The notes beneath the pieces were generated by a model. That model saw only the letters and a list, made by a program, of their open reading frames with translations, did not search any database and was not told where the DNA came from. Below, one piece after another: positions 26,697-31,650 of a stretch of 64,000 nt of DNA; the first letter of the stretch is position 1, and each line of letters begins with the position of its first letter. This DNA is from Saccharofermentans sp. Lineage in GTDB: Bacteria; Bacillota; Clostridia; Saccharofermentanales; Saccharofermentanaceae. The DNA lies in NCBI GenBank assembly GCA_024688685.1, contig JAILDX010000008.1:1-64000 (forward strand). Reading direction: 5' to 3'. The translations under genes and the position numbers were made by a program.

Positions 26697-26924
26697 TTAT
26701 CTCTTCTTCTCGCCTCTCCATGTGATCCTGCCTCTGGAAAGATCATAAGGTGACAGTTCCATTGTTACCTTATCCCCGGGAAGAATCTTAATGTAATTCT
26801 GACGGAGCTTCCCTGACAGATGGGCAAGAACGATATGCCCGCTGTCGAGCTTAACCTTGAATGTTGCATTGGGCAACGCTTCGTCAACAATACCTTCTAC
26901 TTCGATTACATCCTCTTTTGACAT
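26697..26924 (-). CDS. infA: Translation initiation factor IF-1
   Basis: [63 protein letters not shown]. Confidence 0.96.
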
Positions 26925-27688
26925 TAAATACCCTCCTCAAAAGTTGTCATAACAGGTCCTTCTTCTGTAATAAGTACAGTATTCTCATAATGAGCTGCCG
27001 GCTTTCTGTCTCTTGTTACGATAGTCCAGCCATCGCTCAATTGCTCTATTTCCTTACGTCCGAGAGTAATCATCGGCTCAATGCATATAGCCATTCCTGC
27101 TCTCAGCTTATATCCGTGTCCCGCCTTGCCGTAATTAAGCACCTCGGGATCCTGGTGAAGTGATGTTCCGATACCGTGGCCTGTGAGTTCTCTTACAACT
27201 CCGTAACCAAAGCCTTCGCAGTATTCCTGAACTGCGTGTCCGATATCACCGGTCCTCATTCCTGCCTTCGCATACTTGAGTCCCTCAAAGAAAGACTGCT
27301 TTGTCCTCTCAACAAGATCAACAACTTCCTGATCAACCTCGCCTACAAGGAATGTTCTGCATGCATCGGAATGATATCCTTCAAGGATCGCTCCGACATC
27401 CACCGAAATGATATCCCCATCCTTAAGGACTCTCTTCTTTGACGGAATGCCGTGAACAACCTCCTCATTCACAGAAGCACAGATGGAACCCGGGAACGGC
27501 GGCTCGCCGTAATTAAGGAATGACGGTGTCGCACCATGACCGGTAATGATATCATTTGCGATCTTATCGACATCATATGTTGTCATTCCCGGCTTGATCT
27601 CTTTCTGACATACTCTGAAGACCTCCTGAAGTATCTTGCCGGAAGCCTTCATCAGTTCAAACTCTTCTGCAGTCAAAAACTCAACCAT
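26924..27688 (-). CDS. map: Type I methionyl aminopeptidase
   Basis: [79 protein letters not shown] opens at 27718; [14 protein letters not shown] at 27688 is the likelier start. Confidence 0.95.
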
Positions 27689-27717
27689 AGGAAAAAACCT
27701 TTCTAAGAAACCTGCCA

Positions 27718-28371
27718 TCAGATACCCAAAGCCTTAAGGCCCTCTTCGATAGATCTGACACAGCTTTCCGAATCAACATTATTATCGCCTTCAACAATAA
27801 GACCTTTTGCCTGATAGAAATCGATCAGAGGTCTTGTATTTTCATAATAAGTAACAAGTCTTGCAGCTACTGTCTCTTCAGTATCATCTGCACGCTGAAC
27901 AACATTGCCGCCGCAAAGATCACATACGCCCTCAACCTTTGTAGGCTTGAACTTAACGTTAAAGCTTGCTCCGCACTTCTCACAGACGCGTCTTGTTGTA
28001 ACACGCTCCTTGATGATCTCATCATCAACCTTGATGGACAGAACTGCATCGATCTTCTCGCCCTTTGCAGCAAGCATCTCGTCAAGTGCCTGAGCCTGAG
28101 CGAGAGTCCTCGGGAAACCGTCAAGGATATAACCTGCCTTGCAGTCATCCTCAGCCAGTCTTGCTTCAACCATTCCGATCGTGATGCTGTCGGGAACGAG
28201 CTGGCCCTTATCTATGTAGGACTTTGCCTCGATTCCAAGAGGTGTTCCTGCCTTGATATTGCTCCTGAAGATATCGCCTGTCGAAATGTGAGCAAGTGAA
28301 TACTTATCTCTGAGAACAACTGCCGTTGTACCTTTGCCGGATCCCGGAGCACCTAAAATAATGAGTCTCAT
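27718..28371 (-). CDS. adk: Adenylate kinase (zinc-type LID)
   Basis: RLIILGAPGSGKGTTAVVL, DGFPRTLAQAQALD, Cys4 LID CEKCGASFNVKFKPTKVEGVCDLCGG. Confidence 0.95.
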   Translation of the reverse strand: MRLIILGAPGSGKGTTAVVLRDKYSLAHISTGDIFRSNIKAGTPLGIEAKSYIDKGQLVPDSITIGMVEARLAEDDCKAGYILDGFPRTLAQAQALDEMLAAKGEKIDAVLSIKVDDEIIKERVTTRRVCEKCGASFNVKFKPTKVEGVCDLCGGNVVQRADDTEETVAARLVTYYENTRPLIDFYQAKGLIVEGDNNVDSESCVRSIEEGLKALGI

Positions 28372-28393: not shown

Positions 28394-29701
28394 TTATTTG
28401 AATGCCTTTGAAGACTTTGACGGCTTGTTAGCCTTCTTCTTGTCTTCGTTCTCTTTTATACCGTTCTCGAGCAGCGTGATCATATCGTTCACTACTGAAG
28501 ACAGGATCACTACCGCAATACCTCCGTACCATACCTCTCTCATTCCGGGAATAAGCGCAACGAGGACAGGAATGACACACATTGCGAAAAGGAATACCGC
28601 ACCGGCGTAGTTCATGTTCGCAAACATTGAAGTCAGGAACTGTGCCGTAGGCTTGCCCGGCTTAACTCCCGCGATATAACCGTTGTTATTCTTGAGTTCG
28701 CCTGCGAGCTCTCCGGGATTAAACTGCATGATGGCAAATGCGTTGGAAAAGATAACCACGAGGAAAGCAAACAGCACGATGTATGAGGGACTTGTCATGA
28801 AGTTGACGAAACCCTTTACCCATACATTGCTGCTTCCCGGATTATAGAAAGCAATGATAAGAGCCGGAGTAGTGATGAGCATCATCGTATAGATGATCGG
28901 CAGTATTCCGGACTGTGTGATCTTTATGGGAAGCGATGTGTTCTGTCCCATATACTGCTTCATACCGAAGCTTCTCTTGTTGAAAAGGAGCTTTATCCTT
29001 CTCTCGGAGTTCTGAACATATATGCAGAAGACCAGAGCTGCAAGGCTGATGATAACTGCAAGAACTGTAAACACGATCGCCCAGACGAGACCGAGCTTGC
29101 CGTTTGTCTTTGTAAAGACTGTCTTGAAAACATGAGGTACATTGCGGCAGATAGCTGCGAAGATAACTACGGAGAAACCATTGCCAAGACCCTTTGATGT
29201 GATGAGCTCACAGATCCATGATACAAGAGCTGATCCGATAGTGAATCCCAGGATCGCAAGGCTCATTGCAAGCCAGAAATTGAGGTTTGCCGAGAGAGCT
29301 GATCTTGAACCTGTAACGAGAAGGATAGAGAAAACAAATCCTGCGCCGATCGCAGCCCATCTTGTATACTTTGTTACCCTGCGCTGTGCAGCTTCGCTCT
29401 GATAATTGAGATTGCGGAGAGCAGGGATCGTAGCGGTAAGGACCTGAACAACGATCATTCCGAAAAGATACGGATATACAGAAAGAGAGATGATCGATGC
29501 ATTATAGATTCCCTTGCCGGACAGTATTCCCATAAGAGTTCCGACATCTCCCCAGCCATTTACAAGTTCAGAAAACTTTGCAACATTCATTCCGGGAGAA
29601 GGTATAAGTGAAGCTACCGCCAGAACAAATATCATAAGAAATGTAAAAATGACCTTCTTACGAAGTTCCGGTATCTTAAAAGCTTTTGTGATCAATGACA
29701 T
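28394..29701 (-). CDS. SecY-family protein translocase channel, second (diverged) copy
   Basis: 435 aa; SecY-like throughout (KVIFTFLMIFVLAVASLIPSPGMN, GLGNGFSVVIFAAI, CIYVQNSERRIKL, LPIKITQSGILPIIYTMML, GELAGELKNNNGYIAGVKPGKPT), clearly distinct from the upstream copy. Confidence 0.92.
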   Translation of the reverse strand: MSLITKAFKIPELRKKVIFTFLMIFVLAVASLIPSPGMNVAKFSELVNGWGDVGTLMGILSGKGIYNASIISLSVYPYLFGMIVVQVLTATIPALRNLNYQSEAAQRRVTKYTRWAAIGAGFVFSILLVTGSRSALSANLNFWLAMSLAILGFTIGSALVSWICELITSKGLGNGFSVVIFAAICRNVPHVFKTVFTKTNGKLGLVWAIVFTVLAVIISLAALVFCIYVQNSERRIKLLFNKRSFGMKQYMGQNTSLPIKITQSGILPIIYTMMLITTPALIIAFYNPGSSNVWVKGFVNFMTSPSYIVLFAFLVVIFSNAFAIMQFNPGELAGELKNNNGYIAGVKPGKPTAQFLTSMFANMNYAGAVFLFAMCVIPVLVALIPGMREVWYGGIAVVILSSVVNDMITLLENGIKENEDKKKANKPSKSSKAFK

Positions 29702-29741
29702 CTAATGCCCTCCGAGTTCTATTCAACATAATCCTTAACCC

Positions 29742-29757
29742 ACCTATTATAATAGGT
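29742..29757 (-). promoter_or_regulatory. Perfect 16-bp palindrome with embedded TATAAT upstream of the second secY
   Basis: ACCTATTATAATAGGT, 41 nt upstream of the second secY start and just after the terminator that follows the first secY. Confidence 0.5.
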
Positions 29758-29796
29758 ATTCGCACATTTTTCATTATTTATTTTATTTTTATATAA

Positions 29797-29829
29797 ACAA
29801 AAGGGGCTGCCTCTTCGTGAGACAACCCC
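29797..29829 (-). terminator. Rho-independent terminator between the two secY genes
   Basis: Minus strand GGGGTTGTCTC-ACGAA-GAGGCAGCCCC followed by TTTTGTTTAT; 11-bp stem with two G-U pairs. Confidence 0.7.
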
Positions 29830-29856
29830 GTTGTTGTTATTCAAATTAGGGAAAGA

Positions 29857-31203
29857 TTACTTTCTCCTGCCCTTGAGCAGAGCAACATCGTCAAGGAAGC
29901 CCTTAGGACTTCTGACCTCGAGTTCGCTCTCGACCTGATTGATCAGATCATTTGCAACACCCGTAAGGATGAGAACTGAAGTTCCTGCGAACCAGACATT
30001 CTCAAGACCTGTCAGGATACCAACAACTGTAGGAACGATACATACGAGTGAAAGGAAGAATGCATCTACCCAGTTCAGTCTGTGAGCGATAGCTGCGATG
30101 AAATCAGAAGTAGGCTTACCTGCTCTGATACCGCTGATCGCACCACCGTTCTTGTTGATGTTGTTAGCTATCTCGATCGGGTGGAACTGAATAGCGGAAT
30201 AGAAGAATGTGAATCCGATGATCAGGAGGAAGTAAACTATGTAGTAGTAAACGCTTCCCGTGAAATCTGTTCCAAACCATTTCGCTACCGGGCTCTCGCT
30301 GTTCCTGAAGAAGAATGTAACGATCATTGAAGGGATTGCGAGGATACTCATCGCAAAGATGACAGGCATAACGCCGGACTGGTTAACCTTGAGAGGTATA
30401 TAGTCCTTGTTGCCGCCACGCTGATTTCTTCCGATAACCTTCTTGGAATACTGTACCGTAAGTCTTCTCTCCGCATTCTGAACATAGAGAACGAATACGA
30501 TGATTCCGATAGATACAATAGTTACAGCGACGAACACCAGAACACCCATAAGTATTCCGATTGCTCTGTTATCAAAGTTCGTGCTTACATCAGTTGCAGT
30601 GTTGTACAGAGTCCTTACCATGTCGGGAAGTCTTGTAACGATACCTGCGAAGATGATAAGCGAAACACCATTTCCGATGCCGATATCATTTATCTTCTCA
30701 CCGAGCCATACAACGAGACAGGTACCTGCTGTAAATGACAGGACAACCAGGATCGCGTTGAGCCATGTGGGAAGTGAGGATACCATGGCGGATCTTGTCG
30801 AATAGCAGAAAAGGCAGGACTGAACGAGTGCCAGGCCAATTGCCGAGTATCTTGTGATCTTAGTGAGCTTCTTTCTTCCTGACTCACCTTCCTTGGACAT
30901 ATCCTCGAGAGCGGGGATAACGACCTGAAGGAGCTGGATGATGATCGAAGCGTTGATATAAGGTGAGATACCCATCGCAAAGATCGTCGCATGGAATAAT
31001 CCGCCACCGGATACAACGTCCATGATGCTTGCAAGCTGTCCCCACTGGCGGACGAGCTCGGTGAACTTGTCACCGTCAAGTCCGGGTACAGGAACGAGGC
31101 CGCCAAGCATGAAGATGCCGAGGATCAAAAAGGTATAGAGTAATCTTTTACGTATGCTTTCAACGCGAAAAGCGTTTACTGCGGTATCAAAAATACCTCT
31201 CAT
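29857..31203 (-). CDS. secY: Preprotein translocase subunit SecY (canonical copy)
   Basis: 448 aa; KRLLYTFLILGIFMLGGLVPVPGLD, ATIFAMGISPYINASIIIQLLQVVIPALE, GIGNGVSLIIFAGIV, VLYVQNAERRLTVQYSKK, PLKVNQSGVMPVIFAMSI, ISGIRAGKPTSDFI. Confidence 0.95.
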   Translation of the reverse strand: MRGIFDTAVNAFRVESIRKRLLYTFLILGIFMLGGLVPVPGLDGDKFTELVRQWGQLASIMDVVSGGGLFHATIFAMGISPYINASIIIQLLQVVIPALEDMSKEGESGRKKLTKITRYSAIGLALVQSCLFCYSTRSAMVSSLPTWLNAILVVLSFTAGTCLVVWLGEKINDIGIGNGVSLIIFAGIVTRLPDMVRTLYNTATDVSTNFDNRAIGILMGVLVFVAVTIVSIGIIVFVLYVQNAERRLTVQYSKKVIGRNQRGGNKDYIPLKVNQSGVMPVIFAMSILAIPSMIVTFFFRNSESPVAKWFGTDFTGSVYYYIVYFLLIIGFTFFYSAIQFHPIEIANNINKNGGAISGIRAGKPTSDFIAAIAHRLNWVDAFFLSLVCIVPTVVGILTGLENVWFAGTSVLILTGVANDLINQVESELEVRSPKGFLDDVALLKGRRK

Positions 31204-31206
31204 ACC

Positions 31207-31650
31207 TTAAACCTCCTCTGCAGTGCCTCCGGCTTTCTCGATCTTCTCTTTTGCAGCAGCCGTAAACTTTGCAGCCTTTACATCGAGTTTCTTTGTAAGA
31301 TTACCGTTACCAAGGATCTTGACACCGTCATTGTTCTTGGGAAGTGTAATGATACCAGCCTCTGCAAGAGACTCTGCTGTTACTGTGCTTCCTGCTTCAA
31401 GCTTCTCGAGGTCACAAACGTTAACCTCGATGTATGCGGGTGCAAAACGCTTATTGTTGAATCCGCGCTTAGGCAGTCTTCTGTAAAGGGGCATCTGGCC
31501 ACCTTCAAAGCCGGGACGTACACCGCCGCCGGAACGTGCATTCTGACCCTTGTGTCCGCGGCCTGCTGTCTTACCGTTGCCGGAACCGGCACCACGACCC
31601 TTACGATAAGCGGTCTTGTTGCCGAGTGAAGTCATTTCATTGAGCTTCAT
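31207..31650 (-). CDS. rplO: 50S ribosomal protein L15
   Basis: [64 protein letters not shown]. Confidence 0.96.

Follow-up and report, generated by a model that had tools for sequence, protein, structure and literature searches.

The window considered here is the whole 64,000-nucleotide stretch that was analysed (positions 1 to 64,000 of contig JAILDX010000008.1, Saccharofermentans sp.). The S10-spc-alpha ribosomal cluster lies on its minus strand, as do all of the window features located below, and the interval between rplO (31207..31650) and adk (27718..28371) holds two full-length SecY open reading frames, both with ATG starts and free of stops: copy 1 (secY1, 29857..31203; 448 aa), which has rplO as its upstream neighbour and is an ordinary SecY, and copy 2 (secY2, 28394..29701; 435 aa), a diverged paralogue followed directly by adk and then by map (26924..27718), the next gene in a secY2-adk-map-infA unit. 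Both proteins match the Pfam SecY family (PF00344) over the full length of the profile, copy 1 with 341 bits and copy 2 with 218 bits (profile positions 1-305 of 306), and residues 4-413 of copy 2 match solved SecY structures with E ~1e-58, so that its membership in the SecY family is secure. The model for canonical SecY, TIGR00967, separates the two: copy 1 passes the cut-off of 253.6 bits with 373.6, while copy 2, at 226.7, falls below it. The first-pass annotation of this DNA had read two full-length secY genes between rplO and adk and had called copy 1 canonical; the coordinates, the full-length profile matches, the absence of stops and the TIGR00967 score bear out both statements. The two copies share 33% identity across 424 aligned columns and are the only SecY genes of the genome (this and all other genome-wide statements refer to family searches of the genome). 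No Rfam families were found in the region, and an AlphaFold model of copy 2, computed from only eight rows, has a pLDDT of 41, too poor for inspection of gate or plug.

Is copy 2 an accessory SecY2? That identification was tried and rejected. Its score against the accessory model TIGR02920 is 110.1 bits, far under the cut-off of 249.6; its neighbours are spc-operon genes, adk and map, with no asp or SRRP genes among them; and it does not cluster with accessory SecY2 in the tree, where the single Asp-type protein included, that of Lactococcus, stands on a very long branch. The genome, which is 89.6% complete, encodes one SecA above the family cut-off, one SecE and one SecG (a second SecA match is weak, below the cut-off and within another protein), and the nearly complete two-copy relatives likewise have one of each. 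A second secA, secE or secG, which the first-pass annotation had proposed looking for, was thus found neither in the genome nor in these relatives. Copy 2, if it works, must consequently share all three partners with copy 1.

The origin of the pair is best read from the phylogeny. Copy 2 forms one clade (support 100/100) and copy 1 another (100/99), and both group in one clade with the SecYs of one-copy genus members, to the exclusion of all others in the order (100/100; 100/99.9 in a second tree). A duplication in situ, as first proposed, agrees with the nesting of copy 2 in the SecY clade of the genus, outside of which the Lactococcus SecY2 and the plasmid SecYs of lactobacilli fall, and with its location, everywhere, beside secY1 or at the adk end of that operon. 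Duplication within the genus lineage is accordingly supported by the trees. The grouping of the two copies as sisters is weak, with a support of just 42/72. With another sampling, the tree constrained to hold copies 1 and 2 together has a likelihood 8.9 above that of the free search (p-AU 0.815), and the rival grouping, copy 1 with the one-copy SecYs, is not rejected either (p 0.551). Duplication on the stem of the two-copy group is most likely; an older duplication followed by loss is possible.

Copy 2 sits on a long stem branch, and its rate of evolution is about three times that of copy 1 (the path from the window to Ruminococcaceae bacterium YRB3002 measures 0.52 for copy 2 and 0.15 for copy 1). 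Nei-Gojobori dN/dS is nevertheless low, 0.04-0.14 among copy-2 orthologues and 0.06-0.09 among those of copy 1, with no stops; several of the dS values are near saturation, and close pairs give agreeing ratios. Judged by these substitution patterns, copy 2 is a gene long retained under purifying selection. A pseudogene or an assembly duplicate is ruled out by the same ratios, by the intact frames and by the presence of copy 2 in about 50 separately assembled species. The low canonical score and the long stem branch are what one would expect of an accessory SecY2 brought in from elsewhere, or of a decaying or artefactual duplicate, and yet any such account is extremely improbable in the face of the poor accessory score, the lack of a second SecA and of asp genes, the placement within the genus clade, the strong purifying selection and the number of genomes.

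The carriers of two SecYs are a group of gut and rumen Clostridia. Among the 42 genus members that are at least 90% complete, 28 have copy 2 and 14 do not (a tally in which the second SecY of G013, on a 3.4-kb contig resembling contamination, does not count). Three other families of the order (48 genomes sampled) have one SecY each, as does the one genome sampled from another genus of the same family. Most of the Clostridia sampled carry one SecY, in keeping with the first-pass premise that one is usual: outside the genus, the class sample yields second matches only in G296, G370, G378, G430, G446, G449 and G450. Those of G296 and G430 are sub-threshold fragments; that of G370 looks like one gene split across two contigs; that of G450 scores 136 bits; G446 has two full-length genes of similar score in a bin with 9% contamination; and those of G378 and G449 are accessory SecY2s adjoining an Asp1-like gene (these two genomes belong to another Clostridia genus, and the order at loci L161 and L160, respectively, was read by eye as accessory SecY2 followed by the Asp1-like gene). 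As a separate observation, twelve Clostridioides plasmid records (NZ_CP149680.1, NZ_CP149760.1 and NZ_CP149745.1 among them) contain secY; the gene may really be carried by plasmids there, or the records may represent pieces of a chromosome. The tandem pair itself is present in Ruminococcaceae bacterium YRB3002, in 'Mageeibacillus sp. UBA4314' and in a sheep duodenum MAG. No description of a second SecY in the spc operon was found in the search, which covered mainly open-access papers.

In every genome examined, whether the pair is in tandem or split, copy 2 lies immediately upstream of adk(-map). Three arrangements are found: (1) rplO-secY1-secY2-adk, in the window and about ten other genomes; (2) an operon broken between the copies, with secY1 ending the spc half and secY2-adk-map-infA-rpsM relocated, usually behind an alanine racemase-like gene; and (3), in G036, a pair whose copies are separated by an insert of three genes. 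(The G036 insert, at L053:3043-6708, is on the opposite strand and, by eye, reads like the hydrogenase maturation factors HydE/HydG/HydF.) One-copy members have a plain rplO-secY-adk. Tandem duplication in place followed by rearrangement is the simplest history that explains these gene orders.

Right after secY1 lies a terminator-like hairpin (29793..29829) with 11 pairs, 7 of them G-C, and a T tract (tail TTTTGTTTAT). Similar hairpins follow secY1 in tandem relatives and also secY in one-copy members, so the hairpin may predate the duplication. Upstream of secY2 is a promoter-like element, ATGAAA-17-TATAAT (29746..29774). A TATAAT at 43-58 bases before the copy-2 start occurs in 36 of 40 genomes, irrespective of whether the copies are in tandem or split, against about 5 expected in shuffles (the genomes are related, and the count is not one of independent cases); its context is usually TGCG(C/A)TATAATAC. 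This conserved box makes it probable that secY2 has a promoter of its own. Two further observations concern intergenic spacers. A perfect 16-base palindrome, ACCTATTATAATAGGT (29742-29757), surrounds the secY2 -10 box and overlaps the promoter-like element; its core is common to close relatives and absent from the wider clade. In the one-copy genome G021 (L123), adk is preceded, in its spacer from secY, by a terminator-like hairpin and a TTATAATAC box; the promoter would seem either to predate secY2 or to have outlived it.

Might expression be the whole of the gain? The two proteins would then do nearly equal jobs, and the secY2 promoter would keep up export capacity when the ribosomal operons are shut down. 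Such an arrangement fits the hairpin that follows secY1 and the promoter-like element conserved upstream of secY2, whether the pair is in tandem or split; it leaves unexplained the roughly threefold faster evolution of copy 2 and its loss of 28 conserved positions, at some of which the replacement is invariant in 40 species. We regard a purely regulatory gain as improbable.

The proteins themselves differ at a number of positions, given here in E. coli numbering. All 40 copy-2 proteins have Met at R255, in the C4 loop, where 60 of 62 ordinary SecYs have Arg; in the window this is the Met-247 codon of copy 2, at 28961..28963 (calculated from ORF residue 247). The first-pass annotation had singled out another change, Lys for R357 in the C5 loop. 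That Lys is real in the window and is not a family trait: 22 of the 40 copy-2 proteins have Lys and 18 have Arg, so that the site is basic throughout. Met-255 is the residue that replaces Lys-357 as the argument for changed coupling, and the canonical combination of conserved C4 and C5 arginines is not found in copy 2. All 40 copy-2 proteins also share Y248->Phe, F279->Tyr, Y332->Phe, E103->Arg and R372->Asn. The TM2-TM3 loop has lost the charges of E103, K107, E108 and R113, and polar sites of the lateral gate are changed (N87->V/I/F, S282->T/A/M, T404->I/V). Much is retained: K250, G359, K360, T362 and mostly K268, the well preserved 8/9 loop G-x-x-P-G-K-P-T, and a pore ring that is hydrophobic at all six positions. 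The plug region, which had been described as altered, has indeed diverged; a plug segment is still present.

Yeast has a second channel, Ssh1, beside Sec61. By analogy, copy 2 could be an insertase-type channel that has ceased to work with SecA and serves only membrane-protein insertion or assembly, alone or with YidC. The lost charges of the TM2-TM3 loop and the lost polar positions of the lateral gate fit such a role, as do the YidC-domain genes that adjoin secY2 in nine relatives. The preserved 8/9 loop and the basic residue at 357, however, are expected if coupling to SecA matters; loss of R255 should weaken ribosome docking, contrary to the needs of a co-translational insertase; and YidC-domain copy number does not track secY2. 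We consider an insertase rather unlikely. Genus members have 1-15 YidC-domain proteins each, many of 850-950 aa (examples of YidC-domain loci are G000:C15:174826-175386 and 178407-178964, G000:C39:26333-26890, and L039:13134-15719). One such protein that was tested combines a YidC/Oxa1 domain with a weakly sulfatase-like C-terminal region, and its gene adjoins a CDP-glycerol glycerophosphotransferase-like gene. A link between secY2 and the expanded YidC-sulfatase proteins was rejected; the counts do not follow secY2.

Copy 1 has not stood still either. Of 105 positions conserved among 38 one-copy SecYs, the reference set, 30 are kept in both copies. Copy 2 alone has lost 23, and copy 1 alone has lost 4, with a fifth that nearly qualifies. 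Those five (256, 258, 261, 338 and 358) lie without exception in the cytosolic loops C4 and C5. R255 and R357 are still present in copy 1, which has lost K256, Y258, Q261, N338, P354 and P358; copy 2 keeps K256, Y258 (mostly), Q261, N338 and P358. At the neighbouring basic pair 255/256, each paralogue keeps one residue and loses the other. The copy-1 losses at conserved sites fall 8/8 on the cytosolic face (p 0.0016) and 6/8 in C4/C5 (p 0.003), p-values that are a guide only, loop limits and grouping having been chosen by the analyst. Six control clades show 0-6 losses, fewer than copy 1 and lacking its cytosolic C4/C5 focus; the 28 losses of copy 2 are spread over the protein and are not enriched in the docking loops. 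A matching change in ribosomal protein uL29 was looked for among a few sequences, and none was striking.

Changes in the cytosolic faces of both copies after duplication, and the co-occurrence of the copies across the two-copy group, would also fit a copy 2 that works chiefly as part of a mixed SecY1-SecY2 complex and modulates copy 1 instead of forming a separate channel. In most structures, however, one SecY is a sufficient channel; this arrangement seems to us slightly less credible still than the regulatory one.

What the docking loops do is known from E. coli SecY and its complexes. R255E/R256E abolishes ribosome-induced channel opening (PMC5427846); loop 6/7 contacts uL29 and is close to both uL23 and the nascent chain, and R357 of loop 8/9 stacks on rRNA (PMC4737761); and R357E uncouples SecA from plug opening (PMC6021171).

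The account that we prefer, and to which we would give an even chance as a whole, is that of a duplicate, working SecY that shares SecA, SecE and SecG with the original, both having altered docking faces and dividing the labour. Copy 2 would have arisen as a working paralogue when secY was duplicated once, in tandem, in the spc operon of this genus. With a promoter of its own, secY2 would head the secY2-adk-map-infA transcription unit, and its product would most likely pair with the cell's only SecE and SecG to form an active channel. The only SecA and the same ribosomes would serve it as well, setting two channels in competition for one motor; with two channels kept and one export motor shared, the export work is probably divided between them. 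Altered gating or SecA coupling of copy 2, the first-pass suggestion, is a reading from residues: invariant substitutions in the loops that dock ribosomes and SecA favour altered coupling, and Met-255, though invariant, could come from drift on a fast branch.

Each paralogue appears to have changed different parts of the cytosolic docking face. Copy 1 would remain the general channel, and copy 2, its ribosome docking weakened, would be biased toward SecA-driven or other ribosome-independent export of a subset of proteins. This direction of specialization, taken alone, is a tentative proposal to which we give somewhat less than even odds; the changes of copy 1 in the same loops speak against ranking the copies by ribosome binding. 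A split of the general channel into two specialists, with one SecY tuned to ribosome-coupled and the other to SecA-driven transport, both drawing on the same SecE, SecG and SecA, where elsewhere a single SecY does both, is more doubtful again. SecY, the export channel found universally, is an essential protein that is nearly always encoded by a single gene, and the same loops serve ribosomes and SecA. A lineage with two SecYs lets one ask whether the two modes of transport are separable, and two long-kept SecYs with one motor offer a direct route to finding which residues serve which partner. The lineage also shows that the origin and long maintenance of a second SecY do not require SecA2/Asp accessory machinery.

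How does copy 2 compare with known SecYs? With the canonical SecY of the spc operon (TIGR00967) it has in common the full-length domain, the place between rplO and adk, the hydrophobic pore ring, the 8/9 loop and the G-x-G-N-G motif; it differs in being a second copy that scores under the cut-off, in Met for R255, in the lost TM2-TM3 charges, in its faster evolution and, probably, in having its own promoter. The accessory SecY2 of streptococci and staphylococci (TIGR02920) is likewise a diverged second SecY of a Gram-positive-type bacterium, and R255 is also absent, as Ile, from the only one aligned, that of Lactococcus; in contrast to these proteins, copy 2 is encoded in a ribosomal operon, lacks a SecA2/Asp/SRRP locus and has another phylogenetic origin. 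The plasmid SecA/SecY systems of lactobacilli (L. reuteri, L. helsingborgensis) also provide a second SecY that has lost R255 (Thr there), but they are plasmid-borne with their own secA and secG-annotated genes, and their SecYs branch separately in the tree. Yeast Ssh1 and plastid SCY2, likened to copy 2 by arrangement and not by sequence comparison, are second SecY/Sec61 channels beside a main one, as in the two-copy genomes; they are eukaryotic, however, and SCY2 has its own SECA2 and Ssh1 its own beta subunit.
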